NCBI RefSeq assembly: GCF_036226605.1
Contig: NZ_CP109000.1
Span: 4,522,501 to 4,586,500, forward strand
Direction of reading: 5' to 3'
DNA length: 64,000 nt
From: Streptomyces sp. NBC_00704
GTDB taxonomy: Bacteria > Actinomycetota > Actinomycetes > Streptomycetales > Streptomycetaceae
Part shown: positions 2,313-8,275 of the stretch, piece after piece
Numbering within the stretch: the first letter of the stretch is position 1
Layout of the letters: each line of letters begins with the position of its first letter
The notes under the pieces: generated by a model
The model's database searches: none
What the model saw: only the letters and a program-made list of their open reading frames with translations
What the model was told of the DNA's origin: nothing
Program-made: the position numbers and the translations under genes

Positions 2313-3068
2313 CTACTCGGCCGCTTCGTCCGCCTCGCCCGCGTCGTCTGCCTTCACCAGCCCGGCGAGGGCCTCCGCCACGAACCTCTCGGTCGCCGCC
2401 TTGCCGACGCCGAGGCCGCTGAGCACGCCCTCGCCGTTCTCGTGTTCCAGCAGGGCCAGCAGCAGGTGCTCGGTGCCCACGTAGTTGTGGCCGAGACGGA
2501 GCGCCTCGCGGAAGGTGAGTTCGAGGACCTTCTTGGCGTCCGTGCCGTACGGCACCAGCTCCGGCGGCTCCTCGACGGCCGACGGGAGCGCGGCGGTCGC
2601 GGCCTCGCGCACGGCGTCCGGGGAGACGCCCTGCGCGGCGATCGCCTTGGCGGCGAGGCCCTCCGGTTCGGAGAGCAGGCCGAGGACCAGGTGCGCGGGC
2701 AGGCCCTCGGCGTTGCCGGCCGCCTTGGACGCGTTGTGGGCCGCCATGACCACGTTGCGCGCGCGGGGCGTGTAGCGGCCGAAGTTCTGGTTGGCGTCCA
2801 GGTCGGACGACTCCCTCGGGACGAACCTCTTCTGGGCGGCCTGCCGGGTGACGCCCATGCTGCGGCCGATGTCGGTCCAGGAGGCGCCCGAGCGGCGGGC
2901 CTGGTCGACGAAGTGGCCGATGAGGTGGTCCGCCACGTCGCCGAGGTGATCGGCGGCGATGACGGCGTCCTGGAGCTGTTCCAGCGGCTCGTCGTGGACT
3001 TTCTTGATCGCGTCGATGAGGTCGTCGAGACGCACGGACGACGTGGTGGCGGGGCGTGAATCGGTCAT
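2313..3068 (-). CDS. Clp N-domain protein with N-terminal HTH
   Basis: 251 residues. The first about 90 contain a helix-turn-helix-like segment (ASWTDIGRSMGVTRQAAQKRF, residues about 62-82). Two Clp_N repeats follow; the second carries the typical LTFREALRLGHNYVGTEHLLLALL pattern seen in ClpC. There is no AAA+ module. Clp_N domains bind adaptors and substrates of Clp ATPases, and here the domain is joined to a DNA-binding part, so the protein may link Clp state to transcription (inference). A true ClpC with the same Clp_N motif lies at 57526-60051. The tail is acidic (DDAGEADEAAE). The start ATG lies 6 nt after a -10 box, so the mRNA is probably leaderless; two matching inverted repeats overlap the promoter and suggest autoregulation. 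Confidence 0.85.
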   Translation of the reverse strand: MTDSRPATTSSVRLDDLIDAIKKVHDEPLEQLQDAVIAADHLGDVADHLIGHFVDQARRSGASWTDIGRSMGVTRQAAQKRFVPRESSDLDANQNFGRYTPRARNVVMAAHNASKAAGNAEGLPAHLVLGLLSEPEGLAAKAIAAQGVSPDAVREAATAALPSAVEEPPELVPYGTDAKKVLELTFREALRLGHNYVGTEHLLLALLEHENGEGVLSGLGVGKAATERFVAEALAGLVKADDAGEADEAAE

Positions 3069-4466: not shown

Positions 4467-5012
4467 TCAGTCGCCCGCCTGCGTGAAGGCGCTCACCGTG
4501 GCGTCCGGCACGCCCTTGCTCTTCAGCGCGACGTCGCCGTACGACCAGTCGAAGCTCACGGTGGACGAGGCGTCCGGCAGGCCGTACTTCACCGTCTTGA
4601 CGGCGAGGCTCTTGTCGCCGCCCTTCTCGCCGCGCACATAGGTGATCGTGAACGAGGCGGTCCCCTGTGCCGGGAGGGTCAGGGTCTGCGCCGCGGCGGC
4701 GCCGTCCTCGGCCACGGTCGCGGAGTCGCCGTCGGCCTGCAGAGCCACCTTGGGGAAGCCCTTGAGGGTGCACTGCGCGCCCTTGTTGGTGAGCGTGACG
4801 GTGACGTTGCCGGTGTCCCCGGTGGCGGGTGCGGCGTCGACGGGGCCGACCTCCTGGCCGAGGCCGTCGGCGGCACAGGCGCCGCCGGCGGGGCCGGACG
4901 AGCCGGCGGCCTTGCTCTCGTCGCCGCCGGAGTCGCTGTCGTCCCCGCCTCCGCAGGCGGTGAGGAGCAGGGCCGCGGCGAGGGCGGTGACGGTGATGGG
5001 AAGGGCGCGCAT
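4467..5012 (-). CDS. DUF4232-type lipoprotein
   Basis: 181 residues with a classic lipoprotein signal: MRALPITVTALAAALLLTAC, lipobox LTAC with Cys20, followed by a Gly/Asp/Ser-rich linker. The mature part matches the DUF4232 beta-sandwich pattern: an early Cys, then NVTVTLTNKGAQCTLKGFPKV and late alternating beta strands. Such proteins are exported and tethered to the outer face of the membrane; their role is unknown. The gene converges with the DUF2786 gene. Confidence 0.8.
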   Translation of the reverse strand: MRALPITVTALAAALLLTACGGGDDSDSGGDESKAAGSSGPAGGACAADGLGQEVGPVDAAPATGDTGNVTVTLTNKGAQCTLKGFPKVALQADGDSATVAEDGAAAAQTLTLPAQGTASFTITYVRGEKGGDKSLAVKTVKYGLPDASSTVSFDWSYGDVALKSKGVPDATVSAFTQAGD

Positions 5013-5770
5013 GAGGGATTCCTAGGGTGTCGTGACGGTGCTCGATGGATCATCACGCACGCGTGCGGCGACGCTGCGCGCGCCCCCCGCTTCCGTGACG
5101 GCCCGATCACTCACGCGCACCCGACGACCCGCACCGCCCTGACGACCCGCACCGCCCCGGCACCCGCACCGCCCCGCCAACCGCGCCGACCGACCACCCG
5201 CGCCGGCCGTACTGCCGAAGACGGCCCGGCTGTCGGGACCTCCTCGGCCGCAGGAGCCGCCGCCGACCGTCCGGGACGGCCCTCAGCTGCCCGCGCGATC
5301 CCACGTGCCGTCCGACTGCCTCCAGTCGCCCGAGTCGCCCCCTCGGCCGTCCGACTGCCTCCAGTCGCCCGAGTCGCGCTCTCGGCCGTCCGGCTGCCTC
5401 CAGTCGCCCGAGTCGCGCTCTCGGCCGTCCGGCTGCCTCCAGTCGCCCGAGTCGCGCTCTCGGCCGTCCGGCTGCCTCCAGTCGCCCGAGTCGCGCTCTC
5501 GGCCGTCCGGCTGCCTCCAGTCGCCCGAGTCGCGCTCTCGGCCGTCCGGCTGCCTCCAGTCGCCCGAGTCGCCCCCTCGCTCGCCCGAGCCGCCCTCGCT
5601 TGCCCGAGCCGCCCTCGCTTGCCCGAGCCGCTCCGGGCTACCTGAGCTGCCGTCGGTTACCCGGGCCGCCGTCGGCCGTCCGAGCCGCTTGCAGCCGCCC
5701 GCGTGATCCTCGGCCGTCCGCGTGATCCACGGCCGTCCGCGCGCCCCTCGGCCGTCCGGGCCGCCCTCGG
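5013..5770. other. Intergenic stretch dominated by repeats
   Basis: About 760 bp between two lipoprotein genes. Frames are open on both strands because the repeat unit is a multiple of three, but their products are Arg/Pro/Ser-rich or pure repeat, without a credible start or domain. I see no gene here. The repeat block is listed separately. Confidence 0.6.
5307..5579. repeat. 39-bp minisatellite, seven copies
   Basis: Seven head-to-tail 39-bp units start at 5307, 5346, 5385, 5424, 5463, 5502 and 5541. Each holds the core ctccagtcgcccgagtcg. The inner five copies are nearly identical. A related 21-bp tract (cttgcccgagccgccctcg, about three copies) follows from 5580. In translation the block reads as a 13-residue repeat on either strand. 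Confidence 0.95.
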
Positions 5771-6298
5771 CTAGCCGAGCCCCGGTGTCGGCAGTCCGGA
5801 GGGCCACTGGCCGCCCTGCGCCTTGGCGAACGTCTCCTTGCCGGCCGCGCCGGACCAGGTCACCTTGAGGGACTTCGCGTCGACGGAGTCGACCATCCCG
5901 GTCGTCCGGTCGTCCTTGCCGGCGCTGCACTTGAGGCGGATCATCCGCATGCCCGCCTCCTCGCCCGCCGTGCCGCTGCACACGGCCCCGCCGGTCACGA
6001 AGAGGGCGGCCTGCCTGCCCGTGACGATCAGGGCGACGGCCTTGCCGTCCGTCGTGGCGAGCCAGCTCCCCTCCAGTTCGTGGGAGGCCGACGCCGAGGC
6101 GGAGGCCGACGCGCCGCCCGTGCCGCTCGCGCCGCCGGTGTCCGCGGTCGCCGTCGCGGACGGCGTGGCCGGGGAGCCGTCGGACCCGCCGCCGTCGCTG
6201 CACGCCGTGAGCGTGAGCGCGCCCGCCAGCGCCGCCGCCGCGGCCACCGCGCGGACCGACGGACGGGACGTGCCCCGCGAGAAGATCGCCGAAGTCAC
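5771..6298 (-). CDS. Putative lipoprotein of unknown function
   Basis: 175 residues. An Arg-containing n-region, the hydrophobic stretch [17 protein letters not shown] and a lipobox (LTAC, near residue 33) mark it as a lipoprotein. A Ser/Ala/Gly/Thr linker of about 40 residues follows, then a compact domain of roughly 100 residues beginning [22 protein letters not shown], with two cysteines (VCSGT and LKCSAG) that could form a disulfide outside the cell. The pattern resembles lipocalin-like small beta proteins, but I do not recognise the family. Confidence 0.75.
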
Positions 6299-6420
6299 TG
6301 CTGGCTCCCAAGCTGTGCTGTAGCGGGCCGGCCCGGTCGGCGGACGCGAGGACCGCGCGGGCCGAGGGTCCGCAGCAAGCTACCAGCAAGCCCCGGCGGA
6401 GTTCCGGGGCCGCCCGTGGC

Positions 6421-6725
6421 CTACCAGGACGCCTTCCGCACCCCGGGCAGCCGCCCGGCGTGCGTCTCCTGGCGCAGCCCCAGCCGGGACAGCCCGAACC
6501 TGCGGAAGTACCCGCGCGGGCGCCCGTCGACCTGGTCGGTTGCCTATCCGCGTCGCACCGGCGTGGGCGGGGCTGGGCGTGCAACTCCTGCTGTGCTTCG
6601 CGCCGTTGCGTGTCGGTCGTGGAAGGCAGCCGGACGATCTCCTTCAGCTCGGCCCGGCGGGCCGCGTAGCGCGCCACGCTCGCGCGGCGCCGCTCGTTCT
6701 TGGCGATCTTGCCCTTCTTGGCCAT
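6421..6725 (-). pseudogene. rpsN: Frameshifted remnant of a second ribosomal protein S14 gene
   Basis: The reading starts as a clear S14: [14 protein letters not shown], then [17 protein letters not shown] up to [10 protein letters not shown]. The expected middle (ATRIGNR) is then found in a second frame and the expected end ([20 protein letters not shown], then [13 protein letters not shown] and a stop) in a third. So there are two indels: about +1 near 6570 and about -2 near 6545. Total length is 305 nt against 306 for an intact 101-codon S14. The intact form matches the zinc-independent (no CxxC) type. The ATG at 6725 overlaps the TGA of the rpmB remnant by one base, the usual coupled arrangement. 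Confidence 0.85.
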
Positions 6726-6847
6726 CAGATCCGCACCCCACGCGCGCGGATGCGCGCCACGGCCGGCTCGACGCCGATCGCGTCGACGGTCCTGACGCCC
6801 TTCGTGCTCAGCCGCAGCCGGACGTGCCGGCCCTCGCCCGGCAGCCA
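6725..6847 (-). pseudogene. rpmB: Truncated remnant of a second ribosomal protein L28 gene (C-terminal half only)
   Basis: The last about 40 residues of an L28 paralog are intact: [17 protein letters not shown], then [19 protein letters not shown] and a TGA stop. Upstream of the Trp codon (6845-6847) similarity ends abruptly. The first half of L28, with the usual CxVTG/SHS region, is missing, and within about 8 bp the sequence becomes the tail of a CobW-type gene on the opposite strand. There is no start codon or promoter, so this cannot make a ribosomal protein. Confidence 0.85.
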
Positions 6848-6854
6848 CTCGCCG

Positions 6855-7097
6855 GCGTCCCTGCCGGACGCCGCCTGGGACCTGGTCCCGCCGGGGCGCC
6901 GGGCCGCCGCCGCGCTGGACTGGCACCCCGAGCACGGCGACCGCTGCCGGCACCTGGTCTTCACGTCACCCGGCCCGGACCGGGACGGGCTCGCGTCCCT
7001 CCTCGACTCCTGCCTGCTCACGGACGCCGAGTACGCGGCCGGGCGCACTGCCTGGCAGCAGTGGCCGTCCGCCTTCAACAGCCTCCTGGAGGTCTGA
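6855..7097 (+). pseudogene. C-terminal fragment of a CobW/COG0523-type GTPase gene
   Basis: The frame 6855-7097 encodes about 80 residues that match the C-terminal domain of CobW-like metal chaperones: [13 protein letters not shown], then [20 protein letters not shown] and [18 protein letters not shown]. The G domain with its Walker A and CxCC motifs is absent. Upstream sequence in this frame is unrelated and belongs to the rpmB remnant on the other strand. In Streptomyces this gene is normally a Zur-controlled neighbour of the zinc-independent ribosomal paralogs, and its stop lies 4 bp before the rpsR remnant, as expected for that operon. Confidence 0.75.
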
Positions 7098-7101
7098 CCC
7101 C

Positions 7102-7363
7102 ATGCCCAGCAAGCCCGCGCGCAAGCCCGCGCGCGTCTCCGGGACGCACGCCGGCCGCGTCCCGGCCCAACCCGCTCGACCAGGCGGGCGTCGCCTGCAT
7201 CGACTACAAGGACACCGACCTGCTGCGGAAGTTCCTCTCCGACCGCGGCAAGATCCGCAGCCGCCGCGTCACGCAGATCACCGCCCGGCAGCAACGGCGG
7301 CTCTCCCGAGCGGTCAAGAACGCCCGCGAGACGGCGCTGCTCCCTGACGCGACCACTCGCTGA
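7102..7363 (+). pseudogene. rpsR: Frameshifted remnant of a second ribosomal protein S18 gene
   Basis: The ATG at 7102 opens [12 protein letters not shown], a fair S18 N-terminus. The conserved body then appears in a different frame: [17 protein letters not shown], then [20 protein letters not shown] and [13 protein letters not shown], ending at TGA 7361-7363. The switch falls between about 7140 and 7170. The body frame has no good start codon of its own near the expected place. With the upstream promoter region also deleted, the gene is judged dead. Confidence 0.75.
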
Positions 7364-8275
7364 CCCGCCCCACCGCCCGGCCGCCCGGCCCGGCCCCTCT
7401 CCCGGTGGCCGGATCCGCTCAGGTGACGGCCGGGCCCGTCCGCAACCCGCCCGAGCCGTCCACCCTCCGGCTCGGGCGGGTCCGTTCGGCGTGCCGGTCC
7501 GGTCCCGGCCGCTCACCTCCCCGCCCGAACGCAAGCCGGAACCGGCCGGAGAGCGCCGCGAACCGGTCGAGAAGTGTGGCCATCCGGTCGAGGAGTGTGG
7601 CCGACCGGTCGACCGGCACGGCTGCCGTCCCCGCCCGAAGTACACCGCTTCGCCCCCTCCGAGGGGCCCGGGGGTGTGTCCTGTACGCACCCGTCCCGTC
7701 CACCACCGGCCCGCCGAAGACCTTCGTCGTGCTTAGACACGGCCCACTGCTCCCTTGGACGGTCTCCATCGTTCGTACGAGCGAATCCCGTCCCGGCGTC
7801 CACTCATGCGGGCCGTGCGCCCGTTGCCCCACCGCGACGACCGGCCGACCCCCGGCTCATGCGTCCGGCCGCCCCCGCCTCACCTCCGCGTGCCACTCCA
7901 CCTGCACCCCCACCTGTGCCTCCACCTGCGTCTCCATCCCACCTCCACCCCGACCTCCACCTCCACGGCCTCTTTCGTGCTCCCGCGTGACCCTTGGCCG
8001 CGGGGGCCCGGCCGTCGTCGGCGGACGCCGCCGGCACGAGGTGTCCCGGATCGCGGGGCCCCGCCCCAGGGCAGTCGGCTGTCGGCGTCGCGCGGTCCGC
8101 CGGATCCGTGCGGAGCGCTGAGCGGAGGCCCGGAATCCGCCGGAACGGCGTCTCCCGGACCGGCGCCGTCGATCTCCGCCGTGCGACCTCGGCCGATCCC
8201 GTTTCGCCGCCGACGGAACAGGACGGGCATGCTGAGCGTCTGTCCTCATATATGGATGGTTCGATCCGTACGACT
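7364..8275. other. Long intergenic stretch without a recognisable gene
   Basis: About 900 bp. Open frames exist on both strands but their products are Pro/Arg/Ser-rich without domains. It holds a short direct repeat at about 7562-7603 (ccggtcgagaagtgtggcc and a near copy), a pyrimidine-rich CCACCTSC-type tract at about 7890-7970, and the 8-bp palindrome TCGTACGA near 7775. I see no RNA gene. Confidence 0.5.

Follow-up and report, generated by a model that had tools for sequence, protein, structure and literature searches.

The region at 6421–7363 of the window (the 64,000-nucleotide stretch analysed here, G000:C1:4522501–4586500, from a 3-contig assembly of completeness 100 and contamination 0) is, with a probability of about 0.94, a defunct Streptomyces copy of the Zur-controlled locus for zinc-free ribosomal proteins, from which one deletion took out the middle. 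Analyses by tblastn, alignment and Pfam bore out the original prediction of four adjacent remnants, of rpsN, rpmB, cobW and rpsR (Table 1). The orthology and synteny typical of a pseudogene are present, with the flanking genes and both halves of the locus collinear with those of relatives. The open frames for zinc-free paralogs that define a functional locus are not: rpsN2 and rpsR2 are frameshifted, rpmB2 is halved, and rpmG and rpmE are absent at the site.

Table 1 Remnants of the zinc-free ribosomal protein locus and the adjacent gene in the window
Feature	Position	Strand	Description
Lipoprotein-type gene, intact, downstream of rpsN2	5771..6298	(-)	open in five clade relatives
rpsN2 pseudogene (zinc-free S14 paralog)	6421..6725	(-)	start and stop regions recognisable; two indels and an internal stop
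rpmB2 3' remnant (L28 paralog without CxxC)	6725..6847	(-)	residues 39–78 of 78
Deletion junction	6844..6851	.	DNA alignment with relatives
cobW (COG0523) 3' remnant	6851..7097	(+)	last 80 of 382 codons (303–382)
rpsR2 pseudogene (zinc-free S18 paralog)	7102..7363	(+)	frameshift in N-terminal tail

Searches by tblastn with the proteins of an intact relative (G013, locus L047) delimited the rpmB2 and cobW pieces given in Table 1, recovered residues 5–73 of 78 of rpsR2 and found rpsN2 as residues 1–53 and 40–101 in two frames with one stop. The first half of rpsN2 looks intact and the lesions follow; DNA alignment placed indels of −2 at ~6537 and +1 at ~6566, and the rpsR2 frame is lost after ~7142–7150, in the N-terminal tail, all close to the predicted positions (6545, 6570 and 7150). 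The rpmB2 stop overlaps the rpsN2 start. Against Pfam, the rpsR2 remnant matched S18 (positions 4–52, E = 1.1e-22), and the rpmB2 and cobW remnants matched L28 (profile positions 37–58) and CobW_C (profile positions 48–94), both below the cut-off. The N-terminal 56-residue piece of rpsN2 had no Pfam match, and its C-terminal part was matched by the S14 model in the whole-genome search; the 13 intact rpsN2 orthologs inspected are 101 amino acids long and have no cysteine. The extra N-terminal stretch of rpsR2 is not all lesion because much of it is also present, in frame, in L068 (Streptomyces sp. IBSBF 2953), an intact member of the window's clade. The reading of the extra 25 nt as one insertion was rejected on the same ground, given the similarly long in-frame tail of L068.

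The deletion was evident directly from relatives. When 392 Streptomyces genomes (several relatives are draft assemblies) were searched at the DNA level, the best relatives matched query positions 1–427 and 431–943 as two blocks ~1.5 kb apart, and no junction-spanning match besides the window's own was found among the matches listed. In G013, the order is leftward rpsN2 (101 amino acids) and rpmB2 (78), a 62-bp gap, and rightward rpmG (54), rpmE (84), cobW (382) and rpsR2 (78); rpsN2, rpmG, rpmE and rpsR2 lack cysteine, and rpmB2 has one cysteine and no CxxC. For S. coelicolor, we take the locus, in its gene order, to be SCO3425–SCO3430. In comparison with relatives, the site has lost the Zur box and divergent promoter region, all of rpmG and rpmE, and the greater part of both rpmB2 and cobW, as anticipated by the prediction that one deletion had removed the middle together with the divergent promoters and Zur box; the rpmB2 and cobW pieces, expected to meet at 6847–6855, do so at the junction in Table 1. 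The blocks in L068 end at 3044 (window 6847) and restart at 4623 (window 6844) with a 4-base overlap, giving a deletion of ~1.58 kb relative to L068 (~1.50 kb relative to G013). Read against L068, the junction ends share 3–4 bp (GCC/GCCA), an overlap that suggests illegitimate end joining or slippage. It is plausible that the frameshifts are later than the deletion.

The rpmB2–rpmG gap (52–75 bp) was readable in 76 fetched loci, in which three genomes are represented twice. The sequence TGGAATTCATTTTCA was present in this gap exactly in 54 loci, with one mismatch in 15, two mismatches in 5 and three mismatches in 2; it is near the published Zur motif of S. coelicolor, tGaNNatSatNNtCa (PMC5472717). 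The Zur sites of the relatives scored 20.2–30.6 across the 76 loci, whereas no Zur-like site was found at 6300–7400 of the window (best score, 4.8), in agreement with the absence predicted for that interval. In the window's genome, a Zur-like box (score, 19.7) is retained at the start of a ZnuA gene, so the Zur regulon as such looks alive. A Zur-like box (score, 23.7) also lies at the start of a GNAT acetyltransferase gene (L149 1497–2309; G000:C1 near 6763553), which is a possible further Zur target.

Substitutions in the remnants were polarised with L068 as the sister and seven outgroups, leaving out 25 variable sites at which the outgroup state was ambiguous and the columns adjoining gaps. 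The 35 substitutions of the window lineage fell at codon positions 1/2/3 as 13/11/11, compared with 2/3/8 in the L068 lineage and 93/60/245 in a control of 33 intact lineages (not fully independent, as some share sisters, and with segments trimmed slightly differently from those of the window). The control was obtained by dropping 13 of 70 intact tips with incomplete or gapped genes and a further 24 of 57 with a nearest sister that was too near or too far. The share at positions 1–2 in the window lineage (24/35) lies near the two thirds expected under neutrality, unlike that of the control (153/398; binomial p = 0.0003, Fisher p = 0.001); against L068 alone (positions 1–2:3 of 24:11 versus 5:8), the difference is not significant (p = 0.096). 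These data support that the remnants evolve like pseudogenes, under relaxed selection.

We looked for backup copies in the rest of the genome. The primary genes carry CxxC motifs (S14, CQRC/CRVC; L33, CVEC/CPRC; S18, CAFC; L28, CDVC/CTSC), and whole-genome Pfam searches for S14, S18 and L28 found only the primary gene and the remnant in each case. Second copies of L31 (85 amino acids at 818733) and L33 (54 amino acids at 7330751) are open and free of cysteine, and Zur-like boxes are absent within 1.5 kb of either copy (best scores, 7.2 and 9.1, respectively). Three other strong CobW-family matches are present, with a best Zur-like score of 12.1 at those loci. The suggested genome-wide check for cysteine-free copies and a full CobW thus split the expectation that the strain has no backup, which held for S14, S18 and L28 but overreached for L31 and L33. 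On gene content, the zinc-sparing backup appears mostly, not wholly, lost, because Cys-free L31 and L33 genes exist elsewhere. These are probably not replacements for the lost copies, because in L068, where the locus is intact, rpmG and rpmE have further DNA matches elsewhere in the genome; for the same reason, we dropped the idea that they are relocated pieces of the locus.

That the true genome has an intact locus and the remnants are an assembly or sequencing artefact is extremely improbable. Short indels are a common error type in GC-rich sequence, and the locus has a GC content of 75%, but a single precise junction lies inside a contig of 8,037,745 bases, substitutions as well as indels show the lost constraint, the locus was also lost, through other deletions, in four of the five clade relatives, each assembled separately, and a further zinc-free paralog of S14, S18 or L28 was not encountered in the genome. 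It is almost as hard to credit that the remnants still function, for example with rpsR2 or rpsN2 pieces translated via frameshifting or an alternative start. The S18 core, which gave the strong Pfam match, is open for many codons in its own frame, and a GTG at 7061, inside the cobW remnant, lies in that frame; however, between 6825 and 7200 this frame contains no other ATG, GTG or TTG, the promoter region has been lost, codon positions are unconstrained, and the C-terminal M and Y of rpsR2, kept in all eight intact relatives aligned, are altered in the window. Translation of the S18 core from the remnant is unlikely.

Losses of the locus extend to the close relatives of the window. Of five relatives in its clade, only L068 is intact; the locus is lost in L067 (LUP30), L069 (S. 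hilarionis), L071 (S. humidus) and L072 (S. rishiriensis), with scraps of rpsN2 in L071 and L072 and only the rpsR2 tail in L067. The flanks of the six species are ~89–95% identical to L068. One loss in the clade's ancestor, followed by recombinational regain of the locus in L068, would account for four of five relatives plus the window being without a working locus, and Streptomyces recombine often. This history is improbable, given that the deletion ends differ in every clade loser and that the window retains sequence that the others lost. A tree of the flanks (4691 columns) joined L067 with L068 (98), L072 with these two (100) and the window with L069 (100), and a topology with all losers excluding L068 was rejected (AU p = 0.0004), although a short-tract regain would escape notice in such a tree. 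When the locus is compared in full, L068 has the highest identity with the window remnants (89.2% over 961 bases, versus 84.5–87.7% over 2421–2548 bases for six near outgroups), which argues against regain; for cobW alone, an outgroup (L048) is nearly as close to L068 (90.6% over 1105 bases) as the window remnant is (91.3% over 254 bases). We consider a short-tract regain in L068 unlikely. Repeated loss remains our preferred reading: the locus is dispensable in the window's clade and was lost several times independently, with at least four independent losses in six species predicted from the deletion ends and the tree if there was no regain. Whether the zinc-free ribosome programme was selected against in the clade, beyond being merely neutral, is doubtful; if so, having alternative ribosomes, or expressing them wrongly, might bear a cost when zinc starvation is removed by the niche or by another route of zinc uptake.

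To place these losses in the genus, loci were fetched with the neighbouring lipoprotein gene, and the best 80 of 115 (79 of the 80 bearing the Streptomyces genus name) were searched at the site by tblastn. All six genes were found in 55 loci, none in 19 (among them L130, which runs into a contig end, and L072, in which the rpsN2 scrap appeared on DNA comparison) and part in 6 (including L142, cut by a contig end). A larger tree (97 relatives and the window, midpoint-rooted, three tips set aside, duplicate loci L049, L064 and L065 omitted) gave 15 loss groups at the site by parsimony without regain; this count sets aside L117 (without rpmE only), L130 and L142 (contig edges), and includes L053, which by tblastn lacks rpsR2 alone, and L081, L116, L128 and L129, which have a diverged full or near-full locus elsewhere. 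Such diverged loci (L160, L161, L162 and L163; 73–75% DNA identity) occur in four genomes without the locus beside the lipoprotein gene, and in S. colonosanans the contigs bearing the diverged locus and that gene are equal in length, so the two probably lie ~100 kb apart. Among 25 genomes checked whole, a set that leaves out the partial loci L053 and L057, the locus was intact at the site in 2 (L068 and L074), was present elsewhere in 4, and 19 had no full locus. With a profile built from eight rpsN2 proteins, 293 of 392 genomes (284 of 380 good assemblies) gave a match at E ≤ 1e-20, a cut-off that can miss diverged copies, and not all matches were checked for intactness; about a quarter (99 of 392), including the window's genome, had no zinc-free S14 match. 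No report of loss in Streptomyces was found among the titles and abstract openings listed, a weak negative, as the subscription literature lies partly outside that scope. Another middle loss was seen in the reversed locus (6643–7338) of S. hyaluromycini NBRC 110483 (L145), in which rpsN2 and rpsR2 are full-length, rpmB2, rpmG and rpmE are gone, and an inverted cobW fragment lies between.

The lipoprotein gene downstream of rpsN2 has remained open in all five clade relatives, though four of these lost the locus. By its position, it is perhaps the ortholog of SCO3431, which appears in the Zur regulon table for S. coelicolor (PMC6103462); if so, it may have lost a Zur-linked promoter in the window. 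No second Zur box was found between rpsN2 and the lipoprotein gene in 72 intact loci (best score, 7.7). In the lipoprotein gene, each of the five comparisons with the window showed an excess of third-position differences, and no such excess appeared in some other clade pairs (13/13/13 for L069–L072 and 8/7/8 for L068–L072). At 5307–5579, between two lipoprotein-like genes, the window also carries a tandem array of seven 39-bp repeats that are nearly identical (97% matches); degenerate repeats of 19 bp then extend to ~5770.

The ancestral locus had two divergent units around one Zur box, with rpmB2–rpsN2 transcribed leftward and rpmG–rpmE–cobW–rpsR2 rightward. Low zinc would derepress both units, and the CxxC-free S14, S18, L28, L31 and L33 paralogs would replace the zinc-binding versions, a behaviour that is established for the family and carried over here by analogy. 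A deletion of ~1.58 kb, putatively an illegitimate event through the 3–4 bp of microhomology, eliminated rpmG and rpmE with the promoter region and Zur box, as well as the larger part of rpmB2 and cobW, and the outer pieces have gathered indels and substitutions without codon-position constraint, then or meanwhile. Because the locus is dead, the strain would depend on its zinc-binding S14, S18 and L28 whatever the zinc level, and the Cys-free L31 and L33 from elsewhere may still serve it. Because such losses recur in the genus, the window locus is a case of ordinary gene decay and not a new system. Zinc-starvation physiology known from S. coelicolor should not be assumed genus-wide, given the share of the 392-genome sample without a zinc-free S14 match, and sets such as intact L068 and its locus-free near neighbours provide natural matched material for testing when zinc-free ribosomes matter.

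Zur-repressed zinc-free paralogs free ribosomal zinc in starvation (PMC6103462). In S. coelicolor, the Zur-controlled set comprises rpmE2, rpmB2, rpmG2, rpsN2, rpsR2, rpmF2 and yciC/COG0523, with rpmG/B named as a Zur-repressed promoter region (PMC6103462 and PMC5472717). The intact relatives have the same genes except rpmF2; in contrast, the window's locus is deleted and frameshifted, without a Zur box, rpmG or rpmE at the site. The mycobacterial altRP operon (S14-2, S18-2, L28-2 and L33-2) belongs to the same class of zinc-free paralogs and forms one operon, unlike the two divergent units in Streptomyces; as described in PMC5912738, the M. smegmatis operon is needed in severe zinc depletion and not in standard medium, M. 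leprae is without any AltRPs and M. avium strains have a truncated operon. Loss of a zinc-free ribosomal system is thus already known from these cases. Whereas the mycobacterial losses are named species by species in that account (PMC5912738), several of the Streptomyces losses occurred within a single group of closely related species, and the window adds a snapshot of decay in progress to these repeated losses among close Streptomyces.
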